DNA of 48,962 nucleotides from Lutibacter sp. (lineage in GTDB: Bacteria > Bacteroidota > Bacteroidia > Flavobacteriales > Flavobacteriaceae). The notes under the pieces were generated by a model that was not told the DNA's origin, did no database searches, and saw only the letters and a list, made by a program, of their open reading frames with translations. Location: NCBI GenBank assembly GCA_030590985.1, contig JAUVBX010000002.1:1-48962 (forward strand), written 5' to 3'. Below are positions 13,620 to 28,817 of the stretch, piece after piece; the first letter of the stretch is position 1; every line of letters begins with the position of its first letter. Position numbers and translations under genes: made by a program.

Positions 13620-13982
13620 TTAAACTGCTCTAATCAGTAATTCTGCTGTTGCAGGATTAGTAGCTAGTGGAATATTATGTACATCACACAAACGCATGAG
13701 CATAAAAATATCAGGTTCATGCGGGTGTTTTTCTAGTGGGTCTCTAAAGAAAATGACTAAATCAATTTCGCCTTGAGCTACTTTCGCAGCAATTTGTGCA
13801 TCACCACCCATGGGGCCTGATAAAACCTTTTGAACATTAAATCCAGCTTTTTCTGCTTTTTCGCCAGTAGTTCCAGTAGCGACCAAATGAATTTCTTTTT
13901 GGATTAAAATGGCTTTATAATCCATTAAGAATTGAATCATTTCCGCTTTTTTTCCGTCGTGAGCAATTATTGCTATGTTCAT
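13620..13982 (-). CDS. mgsA: Methylglyoxal synthase
   Basis: Converts dihydroxyacetone phosphate to methylglyoxal and phosphate, a glycolytic bypass used when phosphate is scarce. The 120-aa protein carries IAHDGKK (about 6-12), LVATGTTG for phosphate binding, the catalytic aspartate in SGPMGGDAQI, FFRDPLEKHPHEPD (with the conserved His) and IPLATNPATAELL. The computed start at 14003 is a TTG inside the promoter -7 box; the ATG at 13982 (MNIAIIAHDG) fits the family N-terminus. A hairpin terminator separates it from the upstream EF-G-like gene, so it has its own promoter. tpiA and gpmI elsewhere in the window act on the same glycolytic section. Confidence 0.95.
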   Translation of the reverse strand: MNIAIIAHDGKKAEMIQFLMDYKAILIQKEIHLVATGTTGEKAEKAGFNVQKVLSGPMGGDAQIAAKVAQGEIDLVIFFRDPLEKHPHEPDIFMLMRLCDVHNIPLATNPATAELLIRAV

Positions 13983-14000
13983 TGATTTTTTATTTTCTAT

Positions 14001-14008
14001 CAAAGGTA
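14001..14008 (-). promoter_or_regulatory. -7 box TACCTTTG for mgsA
   Basis: Minus-strand TACCTTTG is a perfect TAnnTTTG, with 18 nt to the mgsA ATG. The computed TTG start is the last three bases of this box. Confidence 0.6.
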
Positions 14009-14121: not shown

Positions 14122-16245
14122 TTAATCATCAGCTTCTTCAGCTTTACGTTTCTTAATTAGTCCACTTTGTACATTCGAAGGAACTGGTTGGAATGTGTCA
14201 AAAGTAGAAATAAATGATCCTCGTCCTTGAGTTAAAGATCGTAAGGATGTTGAGTATTTATACATTTCAGCTAAAGGTACTTTAGCGGTAATCTTTTGGT
14301 ATCTACCTTCTCCTTCCATGCCCATTACAATAGCACGACGTGATTGTAAATCGGTCATTACATTTCCCATCATTTCTTCTGGCATTTTAACTACAAGGTC
14401 ATGAATGGGTTCCATTAATTTAGGATTGGCATTTAAGAAGGCTTCTTTAAATGCATGTGCACCTGCTAATCTAAAAGATAAATCGTTAGAGTCAACTTGA
14501 TGCATTTTTCCGTCAAATAACATAACTCGTATATCACGTGCATAAGAACCTGTTAATGGTCCTTCTTCCATCACTTCTAAAACACCTTTCATCACGGCTG
14601 GCAGATAACGTGTATCAATAGATCCACCAACTATACAGTTTACAAAGACTAATTTACCACCCCAATCTAAATCAATTACTTCAGTTCCACGGACATTAAA
14701 TCCTTCAGGGTCTGGCATTCCTTCTTTGTATGGTTCAATTTTAATATGGACTTCACCAAATTGTCCAGCACCACCAGATTGTTTTTTATGTCGATAGCTA
14801 GTAGTAGCAGAACGTTGTATGGTTTCGCGATAAGCAACTCTAGGTTGTTCGTATACTGCGTCAACACCATAAATATTCTTTAACTGCCAATCAATTACTT
14901 GAAGATGCAATTCTCCTTGACAACCTAAAATATGTTGTTTAAGTTCTTTAGAATATTCAACTATACAGGTAGGGTCTTGACTATGAATTTTACGTAGAGC
15001 TTCGTGTAATTTTTCTTCGTCTTTACCTTCAACTGCATGTACTGCTTTTTTAATACGAGAAACAGGATAGTTAATAGGTTTGATAGTTAGCTCATTGTCA
15101 TCAGTATATAATGTGTCGTTAGTTTCAGTATATTTAAGTTTTAAAGTAGCGCCAATATCACCGACACTAAGCTTTTCAACTTGCACACGGTCTTTACCTT
15201 CCATTATGAAAAGCTGGTTGATAGTTTCTGTATCACCTGTTCGAGAATTGACTAATTTAGAGCCTTGTTCTAATTCTCCTGCTTTTACTTTAAAGAAAGT
15301 AATTTTACCTAAATTAGGGTCGTTTAAAGTTTTAAATATAAAAAGAGTAGTTGGTGAGTCTGTACGTGAAATTGTTTCGCCTTCTACACTTTGTTCCTCT
15401 TTTAAGTCTATGGCACTAGGAGCAACATTATCTATAAAGCCCATTAAACGTCCACTACCCATGTCTTTTAATGCAGACATGCAGAATACAGGAAATAACT
15501 CGTGGTTTAACATTCCTTTTTTGATACCTACACGCATTTCATCTTCGTTTAGTGTGCCTTTTTCAAAGAATAATTCCATTAGATCTTCGTCATTTTCTGC
15601 TGCTTTTTCTACCAGTTCGTTATGAAGAGCCTCTGCTATTTCTTTTTGGTCATCTGGAATTTCAAACTTTTCTGGTTTGCCACCTTCTGGTCCAAATTTG
15701 TACATTTTCATTTTTAGTACATCTATGATGCACTGCGCGCCATCAACTTTGATGGGATATTGAATTTTAATAGCATTTTTTCCAATCAAGTTTACAATAC
15801 TATTAAAACTATTTTCAAAATCAGCTTTATCGTGATCTATTTGATTGACAACAAAAACAGATGGTTTAGCAAAACGATCTACATAATTCCAAATAATCTC
15901 TGTACCTACTTCAGCACCATGTTGTGCATTTATCACCATAAGAATAGTATCGGCAACACGCATGGTAGAAGCAATCTCACCTATAAAATCATCTAAACCG
16001 GGTGTATCAATAATATTGATTTTATAATTACGCCACTCTGTATGAAGTGGGGTAGCAAAAATTGAATTTTGACGTTCTTGTTCTATGTCGTGAAAGTCAG
16101 AAACAGTATTTTTTTCTTCAACGCTTCCACGACGATTCAGTAGACCAGCTTCAAAAAGCATCGTCTCAGCAAGGGTTGTTTTTCCACTATGGTGTGCCCC
16201 AACAAAAGCGACATTTTTAATGTGTTTGTTATCGTATACTTTCAT
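14122..16245 (-). CDS. Elongation factor G-like protein (EF-G2/FusA2 type)
   Basis: A 707-aa translational GTPase with the full EF-G domain layout: G domain (1-270), domain II, then the III-V region ending with YSTSLRSLTQGRGSF. The P-loop GAHHSGKTT is at 16-24. G3 reads DTPGLDD (80-86), so the catalytic His of canonical DTPGHVD is a Leu. The switch I stretch reads ERQNSI instead of ERGITI, and G4 is NQID (134-137) instead of NKxD. It is therefore a divergent paralogue and not the main EF-G. In Bacteroides an EF-G2 paralogue is reported to translocate without GTP hydrolysis; equivalence here is inferred. It is monocistronic and followed by a hairpin terminator. Confidence 0.92.
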   Translation of the reverse strand: MKVYDNKHIKNVAFVGAHHSGKTTLAETMLFEAGLLNRRGSVEEKNTVSDFHDIEQERQNSIFATPLHTEWRNYKINIIDTPGLDDFIGEIASTMRVADTILMVINAQHGAEVGTEIIWNYVDRFAKPSVFVVNQIDHDKADFENSFNSIVNLIGKNAIKIQYPIKVDGAQCIIDVLKMKMYKFGPEGGKPEKFEIPDDQKEIAEALHNELVEKAAENDEDLMELFFEKGTLNEDEMRVGIKKGMLNHELFPVFCMSALKDMGSGRLMGFIDNVAPSAIDLKEEQSVEGETISRTDSPTTLFIFKTLNDPNLGKITFFKVKAGELEQGSKLVNSRTGDTETINQLFIMEGKDRVQVEKLSVGDIGATLKLKYTETNDTLYTDDNELTIKPINYPVSRIKKAVHAVEGKDEEKLHEALRKIHSQDPTCIVEYSKELKQHILGCQGELHLQVIDWQLKNIYGVDAVYEQPRVAYRETIQRSATTSYRHKKQSGGAGQFGEVHIKIEPYKEGMPDPEGFNVRGTEVIDLDWGGKLVFVNCIVGGSIDTRYLPAVMKGVLEVMEEGPLTGSYARDIRVMLFDGKMHQVDSNDLSFRLAGAHAFKEAFLNANPKLMEPIHDLVVKMPEEMMGNVMTDLQSRRAIVMGMEGEGRYQKITAKVPLAEMYKYSTSLRSLTQGRGSFISTFDTFQPVPSNVQSGLIKKRKAEEADD

Positions 16246-16382
16246 CGTTTAAAAATTTAAAATTAAAGGAAGCATAAAAGTAATAATAATGAGAGAGATA
16301 GCGTATGATATTTGTTAGTTTTTTAGTTTATAGGTTATATAATTCTTATTTTATCTGTTAATTATTAATAAACATCTGTTTT

Positions 16383-18059
16383 TTATGATAAACCCGAGAT
16401 TTTTCCATTTTTATCAATATACATATTATCAGAAGCTGGTGTGTTAGGTAAGCCAGGCATACGCATCATTTTCCCTAAAATTGGGATCACAAAACCTGCA
16501 CCTACAGCAATTTCAAATTCACGAACAAAAACGCGAAAATCTTTAGGACGACCAATTCTTCGAGGATTATCAGACAATGATTTTTGAGTTTTAGCCATAC
16601 AAATCGGTAAATGATCCAAACCTAAATTTGTGATAATTTTTAGATGGCTTTTTGCTATTTTGGAAAAATCGACACCATCAGCTCCATAAATTTCTTTAGC
16701 AATTTTTTCAATTTTTTCAATAATTGGTGAGTTCCAGTCATATAAGGGTATAAACTTATTTTTTTCTTTATCAATACAAGAAACTAGTGTTTTTGCTAGC
16801 TCTTTCATACCCTCACCACCTTTTTCCCATCCTTCTGCCACGACAGCTTTTATATCAATTTTTTTGCAAATTTTTATTACAAAATCAATTTCCTCTTGGG
16901 TGTCTGTTTGAAATTTATTGATAGCAACGATGGGTGTTATTCCAAAAGTTTTGACATTTTCAATATGTTTTTTCAGATTTTCAAAACCAATCTCAACTTT
17001 AGAAACATCAGGTATATTACGTTCAATTCTTGAAGCACCTCCATGATGTCGCATCGCTCTGATAGTAGTAACTAATACAACCGCTTTAGGGTTAAGTTTC
17101 CCTGCAACACTTTTAATGTTAAAAAATTTTTCTGCTCCTAGATCAGCTCCAAATCCTGCTTCTGTAATTACATAATCAGCTAAAGATAAGCCTATTTTAG
17201 TGGCAATAATTGAGTTAGTACCCTGTGCTATATTGGCAAAAGGACCTCCGTGAATGATTACCGGGTTTTCTTCAAGGGTTTGTACCAAATTGGGTTTTAT
17301 AGCATCTCTTAATAAGATTGCCATCGCATTTTCTGCTTTTAAATCTCGAGCATAAATAGGTTTTTTATCGTAAGTAAATCCAATAAAAATATTACCTAAT
17401 CTAGTTTTTAGATCAGCAAAGTCCTCTGCTATGCATAAAATTGCCATGACTTCAGAGGCAGGTGTGATGTTAAAACCTTCTTGACGAGGAACACCATTAG
17501 CATAACCTCCTAAGCCAATAACCATTTCTCGTAATGCTCTGTCATTCATATCCATAACACGTTTCCAATCTATACTTCTTGGGTCGATATTTAAACTATT
17601 TGTTTTGCTTTGGAGGTTGTTATCAATTAAAGCAGAGAGTAAATTATTCGCCTTCTCAATTGCAGAAAAATCACCTGTAAAATGCAAATTGATATCTTCC
17701 ATAGGTACAACCTGAGAATAACCACCACCAGCAGCACCACCTTTTATCCCAAAAACAGGGCCCAATGAGGGTTCTCTGATAACTGCTATTGCCTTTTTTC
17801 CAATTTTATTAAGACCTTCATTCAAACCTATAGAAATTGTTGTTTTTCCTTCACCAGATGGAGTTGGAGATATCGCAGTGACTAAGATTAAGTTTGATTT
17901 TTTAATTTTTTGGTTATCTTTTAAAGAAAGGGGTAGTTTTGCTTTATACTTACCATACAATTCTAAATCATCTGCATTAATTTTTAATTTTTTGGCTATT
18001 TCAACAATCGGTAACATGGTAGTTTGTTGTGCTATTTCTATATCAGATAAGATTTTCAT
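16383..18059 (-). CDS. fhs: Formate--tetrahydrofolate ligase
   Basis: Makes 10-formyl-tetrahydrofolate from formate, THF and ATP for one-carbon metabolism. The 558-aa length is normal for the family. Diagnostic segments are the ATP-binding loop TPSPTGEGKTTISIGL (about 64-80) with substitutions as read in the ORF (AISPTPSGEGKTT), the GIKGGAAGGGYSQVVPM loop, and the late RIGRPKDFRVFVREFEIAVGAGF and GKMMRMPGLPNTPAS motifs. It is monocistronic and divergent from lpxK. ahcY at the end of the window feeds the same methyl-cycle region of metabolism, but the two genes are not linked. Confidence 0.96.
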   Translation of the reverse strand: MKILSDIEIAQQTTMLPIVEIAKKLKINADDLELYGKYKAKLPLSLKDNQKIKKSNLILVTAISPTPSGEGKTTISIGLNEGLNKIGKKAIAVIREPSLGPVFGIKGGAAGGGYSQVVPMEDINLHFTGDFSAIEKANNLLSALIDNNLQSKTNSLNIDPRSIDWKRVMDMNDRALREMVIGLGGYANGVPRQEGFNITPASEVMAILCIAEDFADLKTRLGNIFIGFTYDKKPIYARDLKAENAMAILLRDAIKPNLVQTLEENPVIIHGGPFANIAQGTNSIIATKIGLSLADYVITEAGFGADLGAEKFFNIKSVAGKLNPKAVVLVTTIRAMRHHGGASRIERNIPDVSKVEIGFENLKKHIENVKTFGITPIVAINKFQTDTQEEIDFVIKICKKIDIKAVVAEGWEKGGEGMKELAKTLVSCIDKEKNKFIPLYDWNSPIIEKIEKIAKEIYGADGVDFSKIAKSHLKIITNLGLDHLPICMAKTQKSLSDNPRRIGRPKDFRVFVREFEIAVGAGFVIPILGKMMRMPGLPNTPASDNMYIDKNGKISGLS

Positions 18060-25594: not shown

Positions 25595-26206
25595 TTAAAA
25601 TTCTACTAAACCAAAAGAGCATAATTTATTCTCAAATTCATCTAAGGTTAATTCATTCATCTTTACTTTAATAAATCCTTTTACTAATTCCATTGTTGTA
25701 ACTAAAGAATACTTACCTGCGTCTGCATATCCAATTTGGTCTAATGTAAAAGGAACATAGTCCTTTTCTTTATAAGACTTATTATTGTCGTGATTTATTA
25801 TAAAAACGCCAAAAGCGTTTTCTTTCTTATGCCTTCTTACTTCTAAATGTTTCGTTATTTGCCTTGTCTTGTTATCTGTTGGGTGTTTCTTTTTTGTTCC
25901 TGTAACCTCAATTATTATTATTTTGTCGGGTAGAAAAATTCTAATATCGTCCTTTTTTAATTGTTTTCCTACTTTACGAACCTTTTCAAACCCAATGTCC
26001 TTAAAATACATTTTTATATATTGTTCTAATTCATCATTACTTATTTTAGGATGTATTATACCTCTTAAAAATTCATATTTATCGGATAATGTTTTTAATT
26101 TTCTATTTATCTTATTTAAGTCATTCTTTAGGCTTTTTCTCTCATCAAGTAATTCTGATATATCAGGGAAGTCCTTTGTCAAATTATGATACTCTTTTTC
26201 ATTCAT
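25595..26206 (-). CDS. PD-(D/E)xK-like nuclease candidate with N-terminal coiled coil
   Basis: A 203-aa soluble protein. Residues about 15-47 are a charged heptad-like coiled coil (ELLDERKSLKNDLNKINRKL). The core resembles the restriction-endonuclease-like fold: an N-terminal helix (NDELEQYIKMYF), Asp86/87 in KKDDIRIF, the strand IIIIEVTGTKKK with Glu100 and Lys105 near the expected catalytic pair, then RQITKHLEV with Gln116 in the usual helix, and the strand AFGVFIINHD. The canonical ExK is ExT here, so catalysis is not assured. The tail (TTMELVKGFIKVKMNELTLDEF) looks like the C-termini of Mrr-like predicted nucleases. It is the last gene of a three-gene operon with two membrane proteins (1-nt and 6-nt gaps). 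The function is inferred, not demonstrated. Confidence 0.65.
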   Translation of the reverse strand: MNEKEYHNLTKDFPDISELLDERKSLKNDLNKINRKLKTLSDKYEFLRGIIHPKISNDELEQYIKMYFKDIGFEKVRKVGKQLKKDDIRIFLPDKIIIIEVTGTKKKHPTDNKTRQITKHLEVRRHKKENAFGVFIINHDNNKSYKEKDYVPFTLDQIGYADAGKYSLVTTMELVKGFIKVKMNELTLDEFENKLCSFGLVEF

Positions 26207-26207
26207 A

Positions 26208-26531
26208 CTATTTTTCTAAATCCTTTGATTTTTTATGTCCTATAAATATACTGCTTACAAGTAATATTACCCAAATGACATCTACTACATTCCAAACAGT
26301 TCTACCAAGTGCTAATTTAAAGAATGGGTTAATTAACAGTACAGAACCAAACCAAATAATCATAAAGGTTTTGCTTCCCTTTTCAAGTTCCTTATACCCT
26401 AAGATTGCAAAACCTATCATTCCTATAAAACGCATTATTTCATAGTAATTATAGGGCATTTTGAATAATGCACCTATGAAAAGGAGTGAAAGTGTTATTT
26501 TAATTATGTTTTTTATAAGAAAATCAATCAT
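26208..26531 (-). CDS. Small four-helix membrane protein (DUF6804-like)
   Basis: A 107-aa protein that is almost entirely membrane-embedded, with four hydrophobic segments at about 8-25, 33-45, 54-70 and 82-98. The pattern YYEIMRFIGMIGFAILGY, a central INPFFKLALGR and WNVVDVIWVILL resembles the DUF6804 family as I remember it; this could not be checked. Its role is unknown. It lies 6 bp after the two-helix membrane protein gene and 1 nt before the nuclease-like gene, so the three are translationally linked. The charged C-terminus GHKKSKDLEK faces the cytoplasm by the positive-inside rule. Confidence 0.7.
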   Translation of the reverse strand: MIDFLIKNIIKITLSLLFIGALFKMPYNYYEIMRFIGMIGFAILGYKELEKGSKTFMIIWFGSVLLINPFFKLALGRTVWNVVDVIWVILLVSSIFIGHKKSKDLEK

Positions 26532-26537
26532 CTTGTT

Positions 26538-27143
26538 TTATAGTTTTTTTTCATTTATTCTTTTAAGTATTTCAATTCTGTGATTTAAATACCATTTTAG
26601 ATTACGAAATTTTTCCCAATTTATTTTTCCATTATTGTTGTAGTAATAACTTGTTCCTGTTTCATTAGATTTTATTTCAACAGAGTTAAACTCTTTTATA
26701 TCATTTTTTTTTAATTCATCAAGTTCAGCTAAGCAGTTTTCGTAAAAATCCAATAGGTTTTGACTATAAATGATTGAGTCAAATTCATATTGTCCAATAA
26801 ATATTTTAAAATTATTTTTGTAGCTATGTTTTGGTATTTTTCCTTTTTTCTTTTTAATATATTTACTTAGATAATCATTAATTTTCAACCCAAACGCACT
26901 TGTTTCGTTATTATTAATTGTTATCTCATTTTTTCTTTCAAAATCAATACTTAATAAATATGAAATTAAAACCACATCAATCACCATTAAAGATATTATA
27001 ATCCAAAATGGAAGATCAAGAATGTACAAGTAATACAAAAATAGAGATGCAAAAAAAATTAGGATTCTAATAAATGCACTAGATGAAATGAAATATCCTT
27101 TTTCATATTCAGATTTAGATTTTCGATAATAAATTTCTTGCAT
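26538..27143 (-). CDS. Two-helix membrane protein with cytoplasmic domain, unknown function
   Basis: A 201-aa protein. After a charged N-terminus (about 1-20) come two hydrophobic segments, FIRILIFFASLFLYYLYIL (about 24-42) and FWIIISLMVIDVVLISYLL (about 46-64). A soluble Lys/Asn-rich domain follows (about 70-201) with no motif I recognise; its C-terminal half is helical (NLLDFYENCLAELDELKK). The layout of a helix pair plus cytoplasmic domain is seen in several membrane effectors, but that comparison is only architectural. It is the first gene of the three-gene operon that ends with the nuclease candidate. No -7 box was found immediately upstream. Confidence 0.65.
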   Translation of the reverse strand: MQEIYYRKSKSEYEKGYFISSSAFIRILIFFASLFLYYLYILDLPFWIIISLMVIDVVLISYLLSIDFERKNEITINNNETSAFGLKINDYLSKYIKKKKGKIPKHSYKNNFKIFIGQYEFDSIIYSQNLLDFYENCLAELDELKKNDIKEFNSVEIKSNETGTSYYYNNNGKINWEKFRNLKWYLNHRIEILKRINEKKL

Positions 27144-27329: not shown

Positions 27330-28817
27330 TCAATCAAGGCTGTTAATATTTCGTTTAATAAGATGTTTGATTTTAGGATCTAGTACATTAAAGATGCGTT
27401 CACCTTTTGGACCTAATTTATCATCCTCATTAATTAATCTATATTTTATCATTAATTCAATTTTTCTTACACACCAATTTGTTTTTTGATTAAAAACAGC
27501 ACTAAGTTCACGTATTGTAAAACTAATTCTTTTTGTCCTTAGAATTAAATTTATCATACTAATAACATCTTTATTTTTACCTGTTCTAGATGGGTACAAC
27601 GATAAATAATCATATCTCTTAGCAAATTTAATCAAGCCTTTTGACACCGAATTACTATCAAAATATTTTATGTCAGAATTTGATGTTTGAATATCATATA
27701 TATCTGACATACATGATATTAAATCTCTAGGTGAATGATTTGATATTTCAATAATTTCATCAATATCATTCTTGTTTTTAAACAAATCATTAAATTTTTT
27801 TTTATCACTTGTGAAATATCTTACTCGTTTATCAATTAGAGGAACCATATCCGATTTTTTCCAACTAATATCAATTTCTTTAAACTTATCAAAACGAACT
27901 GTTTTTGATAAAATTGGTTTTACTTCAGTCCATAGACTAAATGCTATTGCAATATCATTCTGTAATAAAAGTTCAGTATCGGTTAAAATGTCTTTCGTGA
28001 AAGCTGCAATTTTATTTACATCATGGTTTAATTCTTGAAATTCATCAACTTTATCGAAAAGTATCACTGAAGAATTAAAATAAGATTTTTGGGCAATAGA
28101 ATTGATTCTATTTAATAATTCTTTTAAATGCCTTTTATTAGTAGTTAGTTGTAGCTCTGCATTTGAGGCATCAATATTAGGTTCCTCTATTTCACCAATA
28201 AATTCCGTGAAATCTCTAATATTTACATCGCCTAAGCCAATTGATTCTGAAATTATTTTTGAAGTAATCATAACGCCCGTATTGATAATTGAATTTGTGG
28301 GTTTGATAAATCCATTAAATAATCTAATGAAAAAGTTTTTTACTTTGACTTTCTTAATATTTTCATATCTATTTTCATACTCAACTCTTGTAAGAGGTTT
28401 GAAAAACAATTTAATAAGAAGCCCCAAGCTTTCTTTATCCTCTGTGTCTAACTTTTTTAGAATATATTTATTCTTGTCAAGAAACAGTACAAATTTTGTT
28501 ACAAACTCTGTTAAAATAAGATTTAATAGAGGGATTTTGTTGTTTGTTAGAGCTATATCATCGAATCTATCAATAATAATTGTGAGTACCTTATCTTTTT
28601 CTAAATCTGATTTTAATTCATATATTATTGATGATTTACCATGACCTCTTTGTCCTAAGATAAATCTGCTAGTGCCTGATTTCAAATCATCTAACAGTGT
28701 TTTGTAAAATAATGGTGGGTAAAATATTTGAGAAAGGAAATCTAATTCCTCCTCAGCAGAAAATTTAGAAAAGGGGTTCTTATTAAACCCCATTTTTTCA
28801 TTAAGAGTATTTTTCAT
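27330..28817 (-). CDS. P-loop ATPase (Sll1717-family-like) with C-terminal winged helix
   Basis: A 495-aa AAA/STAND-like ATPase. The N-terminus NPFSKFSAEEE leads to Walker A GQRGHGKSS (55-63). Walker B lies in SVILFDKVDEF (about 250-260), with Lys in place of the second acidic residue of the usual DDLDE. A segment HSPRDLIS (about 370) fits a sensor 2/lid region. The last 100 residues (ISMINLILRTKRISFTIREL to RIFNVLDPKIKHL) look like a winged-helix domain, so DNA, RNA or protein sensing is plausible. It most resembles what is called the P-loop ATPase Sll1717 family, of unknown function; this is from memory. It has its own promoter and is bracketed by an 11-bp inverted repeat. Confidence 0.75.
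   Translation of the reverse strand: MKNTLNEKMGFNKNPFSKFSAEEELDFLSQIFYPPLFYKTLLDDLKSGTSRFILGQRGHGKSSIIYELKSDLEKDKVLTIIIDRFDDIALTNNKIPLLNLILTEFVTKFVLFLDKNKYILKKLDTEDKESLGLLIKLFFKPLTRVEYENRYENIKKVKVKNFFIRLFNGFIKPTNSIINTGVMITSKIISESIGLGDVNIRDFTEFIGEIEEPNIDASNAELQLTTNKRHLKELLNRINSIAQKSYFNSSVILFDKVDEFQELNHDVNKIAAFTKDILTDTELLLQNDIAIAFSLWTEVKPILSKTVRFDKFKEIDISWKKSDMVPLIDKRVRYFTSDKKKFNDLFKNKNDIDEIIEISNHSPRDLISCMSDIYDIQTSNSDIKYFDSNSVSKGLIKFAKRYDYLSLYPSRTGKNKDVISMINLILRTKRISFTIRELSAVFNQKTNWCVRKIELMIKYRLINEDDKLGPKGERIFNVLDPKIKHLIKRNINSLD

Follow-up and report, generated by a model that had tools for sequence, protein, structure and literature searches.

The window that we analysed, a stretch of 48,962 nucleotides from a Lutibacter sp. 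MAG (contig JAUVBX010000002.1), encodes a paralogue of elongation factor G (EF-G) that we refer to as EF-G2. Its open reading frame begins with ATG and has no internal stops, and all five EF-G domains are detected in the product of 707 amino acids. The gene lies between a formate-tetrahydrofolate ligase gene and a methylglyoxal synthase gene, and is preceded by a promoter element and a candidate activator site:

13620-14003, minus strand: methylglyoxal synthase (mgsA), downstream of EF-G2
14122-16245, minus strand: EF-G2-type EF-G paralogue, 707 amino acids, five EF-G domains
14482-14514, minus strand: domain IV tip loop DGKMHQVDSND (residues 578-588); His582 is invariant, as in canonical EF-G
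14638-14739, minus strand: domain IV stretch with the EF-G2-specific insertion (residues 503-536, 34 amino acids)
15835-15846, minus strand: G4 motif NQID (residues 134-137), with Gln135 instead of Lys
15988-16008, minus strand: G3 motif DTPGLDD (residues 80-86), with Leu84 at the catalytic His position
16060-16077, minus strand: switch I motif ERQNSI (residues 57-62), with Gln and Ser replacing the Gly and Thr of RGITI
16174-16200, minus strand: P-loop GAHHSGKTT (residues 16-24), with His19 replacing the Asp of canonical AHIDAGKTT
16275-16282, minus strand: -7 promoter element TACTTTTA (Bacteroidota consensus TAnnTTTR), 22 nt after the box
16305-16318, minus strand: CRP/FNR-type box CTAACAAATATCAT, upstream of EF-G2
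16383-18059, minus strand: formate-tetrahydrofolate ligase (fhs), upstream of EF-G2

Outside the genus, the order fhs - EF-G2 - mgsA is not conserved. No operon partner therefore accounts for the function of EF-G2, and we rejected the neighbours as a clue to it. Elsewhere in the window (27330-28817, minus strand) is a gene for a 495-amino-acid P-loop ATPase that matches NF053860 (DS41_1 anti-phage protein; 415.8 bits, cut-off 370). Small unassigned open reading frames at 25595-27143 adjoin it.

The initial annotation had related this protein to the EF-G2 of gut Bacteroides, and profile scores, a search of PDB sequences, a fold search and a phylogenetic tree all bear this out. Among curated profiles, NF058620 (elongation factor G2, Bacteroides) scores best, at 996.9 bits, which is 3 bits short of its cut-off of 1000. 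The protein passes the broader subfamily model NF009381 (871.5 bits, cut-off 583) and fails the canonical EF-G model TIGR00484 (539.5 bits, cut-off 659.4). The grouping with tetracycline-protection proteins that had been set against this relationship was not seen: the score against the tetracycline ribosomal protection model (NF012153) is 246.5 bits and the cut-off is 775, which rules out that assignment. The best PDB sequence match is 7uvp/8dmf, the EF-G2 of Bacteroides thetaiotaomicron (782 bits, versus 464 bits for canonical EF-G). A predicted structure (mean pLDDT 78.8, with low confidence in the P-loop and switch regions) has 8dmf as its top match in a fold search (query TM 0.85). In a FastTree phylogeny (175 sequences), a single clade with support of 1.0 unites 105 proteins, among them the window protein and B. 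thetaiotaomicron EF-G2, and the 25 canonical EF-Gs are placed apart. The window protein thus belongs to the lineage of B. thetaiotaomicron EF-G2, and not to canonical EF-G or to the tetracycline-protection proteins. (The chain in 7uvp and 8dmf is labelled as tetracycline resistance protein TetQ, yet the entry 8dmf is titled as ribosome-bound B. thetaiotaomicron EF-G2; the label is mistaken and could lead annotation astray.)

B. thetaiotaomicron EF-G2 (fusA2, BT2167) is about 50% identical to the window protein. Besides the five EF-G domains, the two proteins share the loss of the catalytic His and of the P-loop Asp, the NQxD form of G4, and a domain IV insertion with the sequence WGGKLVF. They differ at the His position itself, which is Ser in B. 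thetaiotaomicron and Leu in the window protein. Canonical EF-G (fusA) is 32-39% identical to the window protein and has the same domain order and domain IV tip, but DTPGHVDF, RGITI, the P-loop Asp and NKxD are present in 25/25 canonical proteins and the insertion is in none.

Three of these altered motifs had been noticed at the outset, and all three are as described: in DTPGLDD, Leu84 aligns to the catalytic His of the EF-Gs from E. coli and T. thermophilus; residues 57-62 are ERQNSI instead of ERGITI; and residues 134-137 are NQID instead of NKxD. The further statement that the EF-G domains are otherwise intact has to be corrected: the P-loop Asp is replaced by His19, and domain IV has an insertion of 17 residues relative to the commonest canonical length. 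(Lys22 and Thr23 of the P-loop are retained.) In translational GTPases, the P-loop Asp is a ligand of a catalytic monovalent cation.

We compared 149 EF-G2-like proteins from Bacteroidota, and the catalytic His is absent from every one of them. The residue at this position is Leu in 92, Tyr in 38, Ser in 6, Phe in 5, Thr in 5, Ala in 2 and Pro in 1, so on this alignment the loss of His is not peculiar to the window gene. Tyr is the basal state on the tree and is also found in Thermus EF-G-2; in the clade that unites the window protein with Bacteroides EF-G2, Tyr has given way to Leu, Ser, Phe, Ala or Pro. Of the 149 proteins, 147 lack the P-loop Asp. The residues that hold the nucleotide and Mg are retained: the P-loop Lys in 148/149, and the P-loop Thr and the Asp and Gly of G3 in 149/149. 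(The exception for Lys is the EF-G2 of a Croceivirga MAG, L089, whose P-loop reads GCGNTT; this could be a sequencing error.) The window protein's own residues are common in the family (Leu84 in 92/149, Gln135 in 109/149 and Ser61 in 139/149), G4 is almost always NQxD in its clade, and the EF-G2 proteins of congeners are 86-94% identical to it. Because of this recurrence, the comparison marks DTPGLDD, ERQNSI and NQID as fixed characters of the family and rules out chance or sequencing error.

The EFG II subfamily has been described as having a relaxed G2 motif, xxxSx (Margus et al., PMC3150367). The window protein conforms to it with RQNSI; Ser occupies this position in 139/149 EF-G2-like proteins. 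The relaxed motif, which has Ser at the Thr position in the window protein's clade, is a feature in common with T. thermophilus EF-G-2 (1WDT), a member of EFG II. The Thermus protein likewise lacks both the His and the P-loop Asp (its sequence reads DAPGYGDF and GHAGSGKT, with Tyr for His and Gly for Asp). It differs in that it has no insertion, retains Lys in G4 (TKLD) and is reported to be an active GTPase in the account given by PMC3150367.

We measured the length of the domain IV insertion between the anchors IEP and VFxN. This stretch has 34 residues in 141 of the 149 EF-G2-like proteins and 43 in six of Bacteroides type. Thermus EF-G-2 has only 11, and canonical EF-G has 14-25 (usually 15-17, with 17 the commonest length). 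Compared with this commonest length, then, Bacteroides EF-G2 has 26 extra residues and the window protein has 17. In Bacteroides, a 26-residue region specific to EF-G2 is reportedly needed for dissociation and responsible for the lack of GTPase activity, and the length difference that we measured matches it. Judged by length, the window protein has 17 of these 26 residues, and the other 9, which occur only in Bacteroides-type members, are a Bacteroides addition. Since the 34-residue stretch is widespread and the 9 further residues are confined to the Bacteroides type, the common part is ancestral to the Bacteroidota clade. At the domain IV tip, His582, Val584 and Asp585 are retained in 149/149 proteins, and domain IV is the domain most conserved relative to B. 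thetaiotaomicron EF-G2 (69%).

A strong match to the EF-G2 model is found in 153 of 393 Bacteroidota genomes. Most of the named relatives belong to the Flavobacteriaceae, for example Lutibacter, Maribacter and Polaribacter; a literature search found no paper that names EF-G2 together with Flavobacteria. As in B. thetaiotaomicron, a canonical EF-G accompanies EF-G2, in the window gene's case in congeners. The expectation of a second, canonical fusA in the genome held for 6/6 congeners; in the source MAG, which is 56% complete, canonical fusA was not found, so coexistence is shown only in the congeners. In one congener (L175; G002:C111), a second canonical-type EF-G is on a 4.3-kb contig of a MAG and is possibly contamination.

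B. thetaiotaomicron EF-G2 enables GTP-independent translation (PMC10294740; PMC12775393), and a hydrolysis-deficient E. coli EF-G (H92A) continues multi-turnover translocation with slow release (PMC12775393). By analogy, the window protein may also translocate independently of GTP. We propose that the EF-G2 of Bacteroidota is an accessory translocation factor that would work alongside canonical EF-G: it would bind guanine nucleotide and the ribosome, and binding would drive translocation via the intact domain IV tip. Having lost the catalytic His and the P-loop Asp, and with an altered switch I, it would hydrolyse GTP slightly if at all, and the domain IV insertion may substitute for hydrolysis in the release of the factor.

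The initial annotation had already suggested a factor that binds the ribosome with little GTP hydrolysis, like EF-G2. The kinship to EF-G2 stands, but the step from the missing His to low hydrolysis is weaker than was claimed: Thermus EF-G-2 lacks both residues and is nevertheless a GTPase in the report of Connell et al. as cited in PMC3150367, so the loss of His alone does not prove that the GTPase is dead. The insertion that reportedly accounts for the loss of GTPase in Bacteroides is, moreover, 9 residues shorter in the window protein. For this reason we hold low GTPase activity of the window protein to be likely but well short of certain. If it were instead a competent GTPase of the EF-G II type, it would simply be a second, differently regulated EF-G. 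The retained nucleotide- and Mg-binding residues agree with this, as does the Thermus protein, with its Tyr for His and Gly for Asp, for which PMC3150367 relates a higher intrinsic GTPase activity and nearly normal poly(Phe) synthesis. But the window protein groups with B. thetaiotaomicron EF-G2, which is reported to work without GTP hydrolysis, and has that protein's insertion and NQxD, neither of which is found in Thermus EF-G-2. We consider a competent GTPase to be rather unlikely. Specialization in ribosome recycling, rescue or exit from hibernation, and not in translocation, seems more improbable still. Recycling-specialized EF-G paralogues are known from mitochondria (EF-G2) and from Borrelia, judging by titles of papers cited in PMC4342817, and a ribosome hibernation factor gene has the same type of promoter box in one related genome (L233, below). 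However, the translocation tip is kept throughout the family, domain IV is the part most like B. thetaiotaomicron EF-G2, and that protein supports translation.

What is new in this analysis is that 56 of the 88 Leu-type EF-G2 genes have a CRP/FNR-type box upstream. CTAACAAATATCAT, upstream of the window gene, is by far the best match in the window (22.8 bits; the runner-up has 6.8 bits). The pattern YTRAY-N4-RTCAB precedes these 56 genes (the window gene included) as compared to 0.8 expected from shuffled sequences, 1/541 other genes in the same loci and 0/11 canonical fusA genes; these counts are not independent, because the upstream sequences are related, and the contrast between box and flank is better evidence. 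Between genes, the half-sites are 91% identical and the flank is 38% identical. The box is missing upstream of 32/88 Leu-type genes, including those of two congeners (L101 and L008). Fifty of 57 boxes end 21-23 nt ahead of a TAnnTTTR -7 element, a geometry from which we infer a site for class II activation by a CRP/FNR-family regulator. In our literature search, we found no description of a CTRAC-type box for Bacteroidota. The palindromes TGTT...AACA and TTGT...ACAA were not enriched across all of the upstream regions.

To see which other genes have this box, we scanned 151 genomes of the family for CTGACNNNNGTCATNTT plus the -7 element, with the reversed pattern as a control. The scan listed 50 sites, with 1 match to the control. 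We read 30 loci of the CTGAC form: the box is before ccoN at 9, HemN at 3 and NirK at 2, and the others include cNOR, MoeA, universal stress proteins, a CRP/FNR regulator, formate-tetrahydrofolate ligase (in L232), the hibernation factor HPF, and EF-G2. (Profiles confirmed examples of ccoN, HemN, NirK, HPF, Usp and formate-tetrahydrofolate ligase; the others were named from sequence.) The CTAACA form gave 8 sites and no control matches: EF-G2 at 4, RseC-type at 2, a RIC protein at 1 and one unassigned. The window gene carries the CTAAC form, which thus also precedes RIC and RseC (Rnf-type) genes; most of the family-wide regulon matches have the CTGAC form. In congeners, a CTAAC-form box precedes RseC and PEPCK (the latter in L197). 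These are the genes that one would expect to find in an FNR-type low-oxygen regulon. Two CRP/FNR-family genes are present in the source MAG; one is longer and resembles a receiver-CRP fusion, and the homologue of the receiver-CRP-like regulator in this genome is at G000:C40. In L233, a CTGAC-N4-GTCAT box with a -7 element precedes the HPF/YfiA ribosome hibernation gene, so low oxygen may control ribosome hibernation as well in Flavobacteriaceae.

In Bacteroides, by comparison, Cur drives fusA2 on carbon limitation through a different half-site (PMC6989115); the site of the B. thetaiotaomicron gene resembles TATGTTnTAnAACATA, and its induction is 238-fold. Cur (BT4338) is itself a CRP/FNR-family regulator, discussed as MalR (PMC8510549), and might have a counterpart that controls the window gene in place of an FNR-like regulator. 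The box before PEPCK, a gluconeogenic gene, would fit with that. But upstream of the window gene, the best match to a Cur-type site has 4 mismatches, which 57% of shuffled sequences reach, so we rejected a Cur-type site; the window gene has the CTRAC-type box instead, and its CTRAC/GTCAT half-site is common to the cbb3 oxidase, hemN and nirK. We think that control by a carbon-limitation regulator is unlikely. With a putative activator site of the low-oxygen regulon in its promoter, EF-G2 would be expected in this family to be expressed under a shortage of oxygen and thus of energy.

Overall, the window protein is most likely a low-GTPase translocase that is induced at low oxygen and is accessory to canonical EF-G (a probability of roughly 0.6). 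More tentatively, and with somewhat less than even confidence, we suggest that the FNR-type low-oxygen response of Flavobacteriaceae includes GTP-sparing translation by EF-G2, switched on with the cbb3 oxidase, anaerobic haem synthesis, nitrosative-stress repair and, in certain genomes, a factor for ribosome hibernation. EF-G2 would then respond to one signal of energy limitation in gut lineages and to another in marine ones. Natural variants of the His site and of the insertion length form a ready panel for testing how EF-G becomes independent of GTP hydrolysis. If our reading is correct, then gut Bacteroides are not peculiar in translocating without GTP hydrolysis, the trait is ancient and extends across Bacteroidota, and EF-G2 in marine Bacteroidota is tied to oxygen and not to sugar limitation. 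Our results suggest that EF-G2 may keep protein synthesis going when energy is short.
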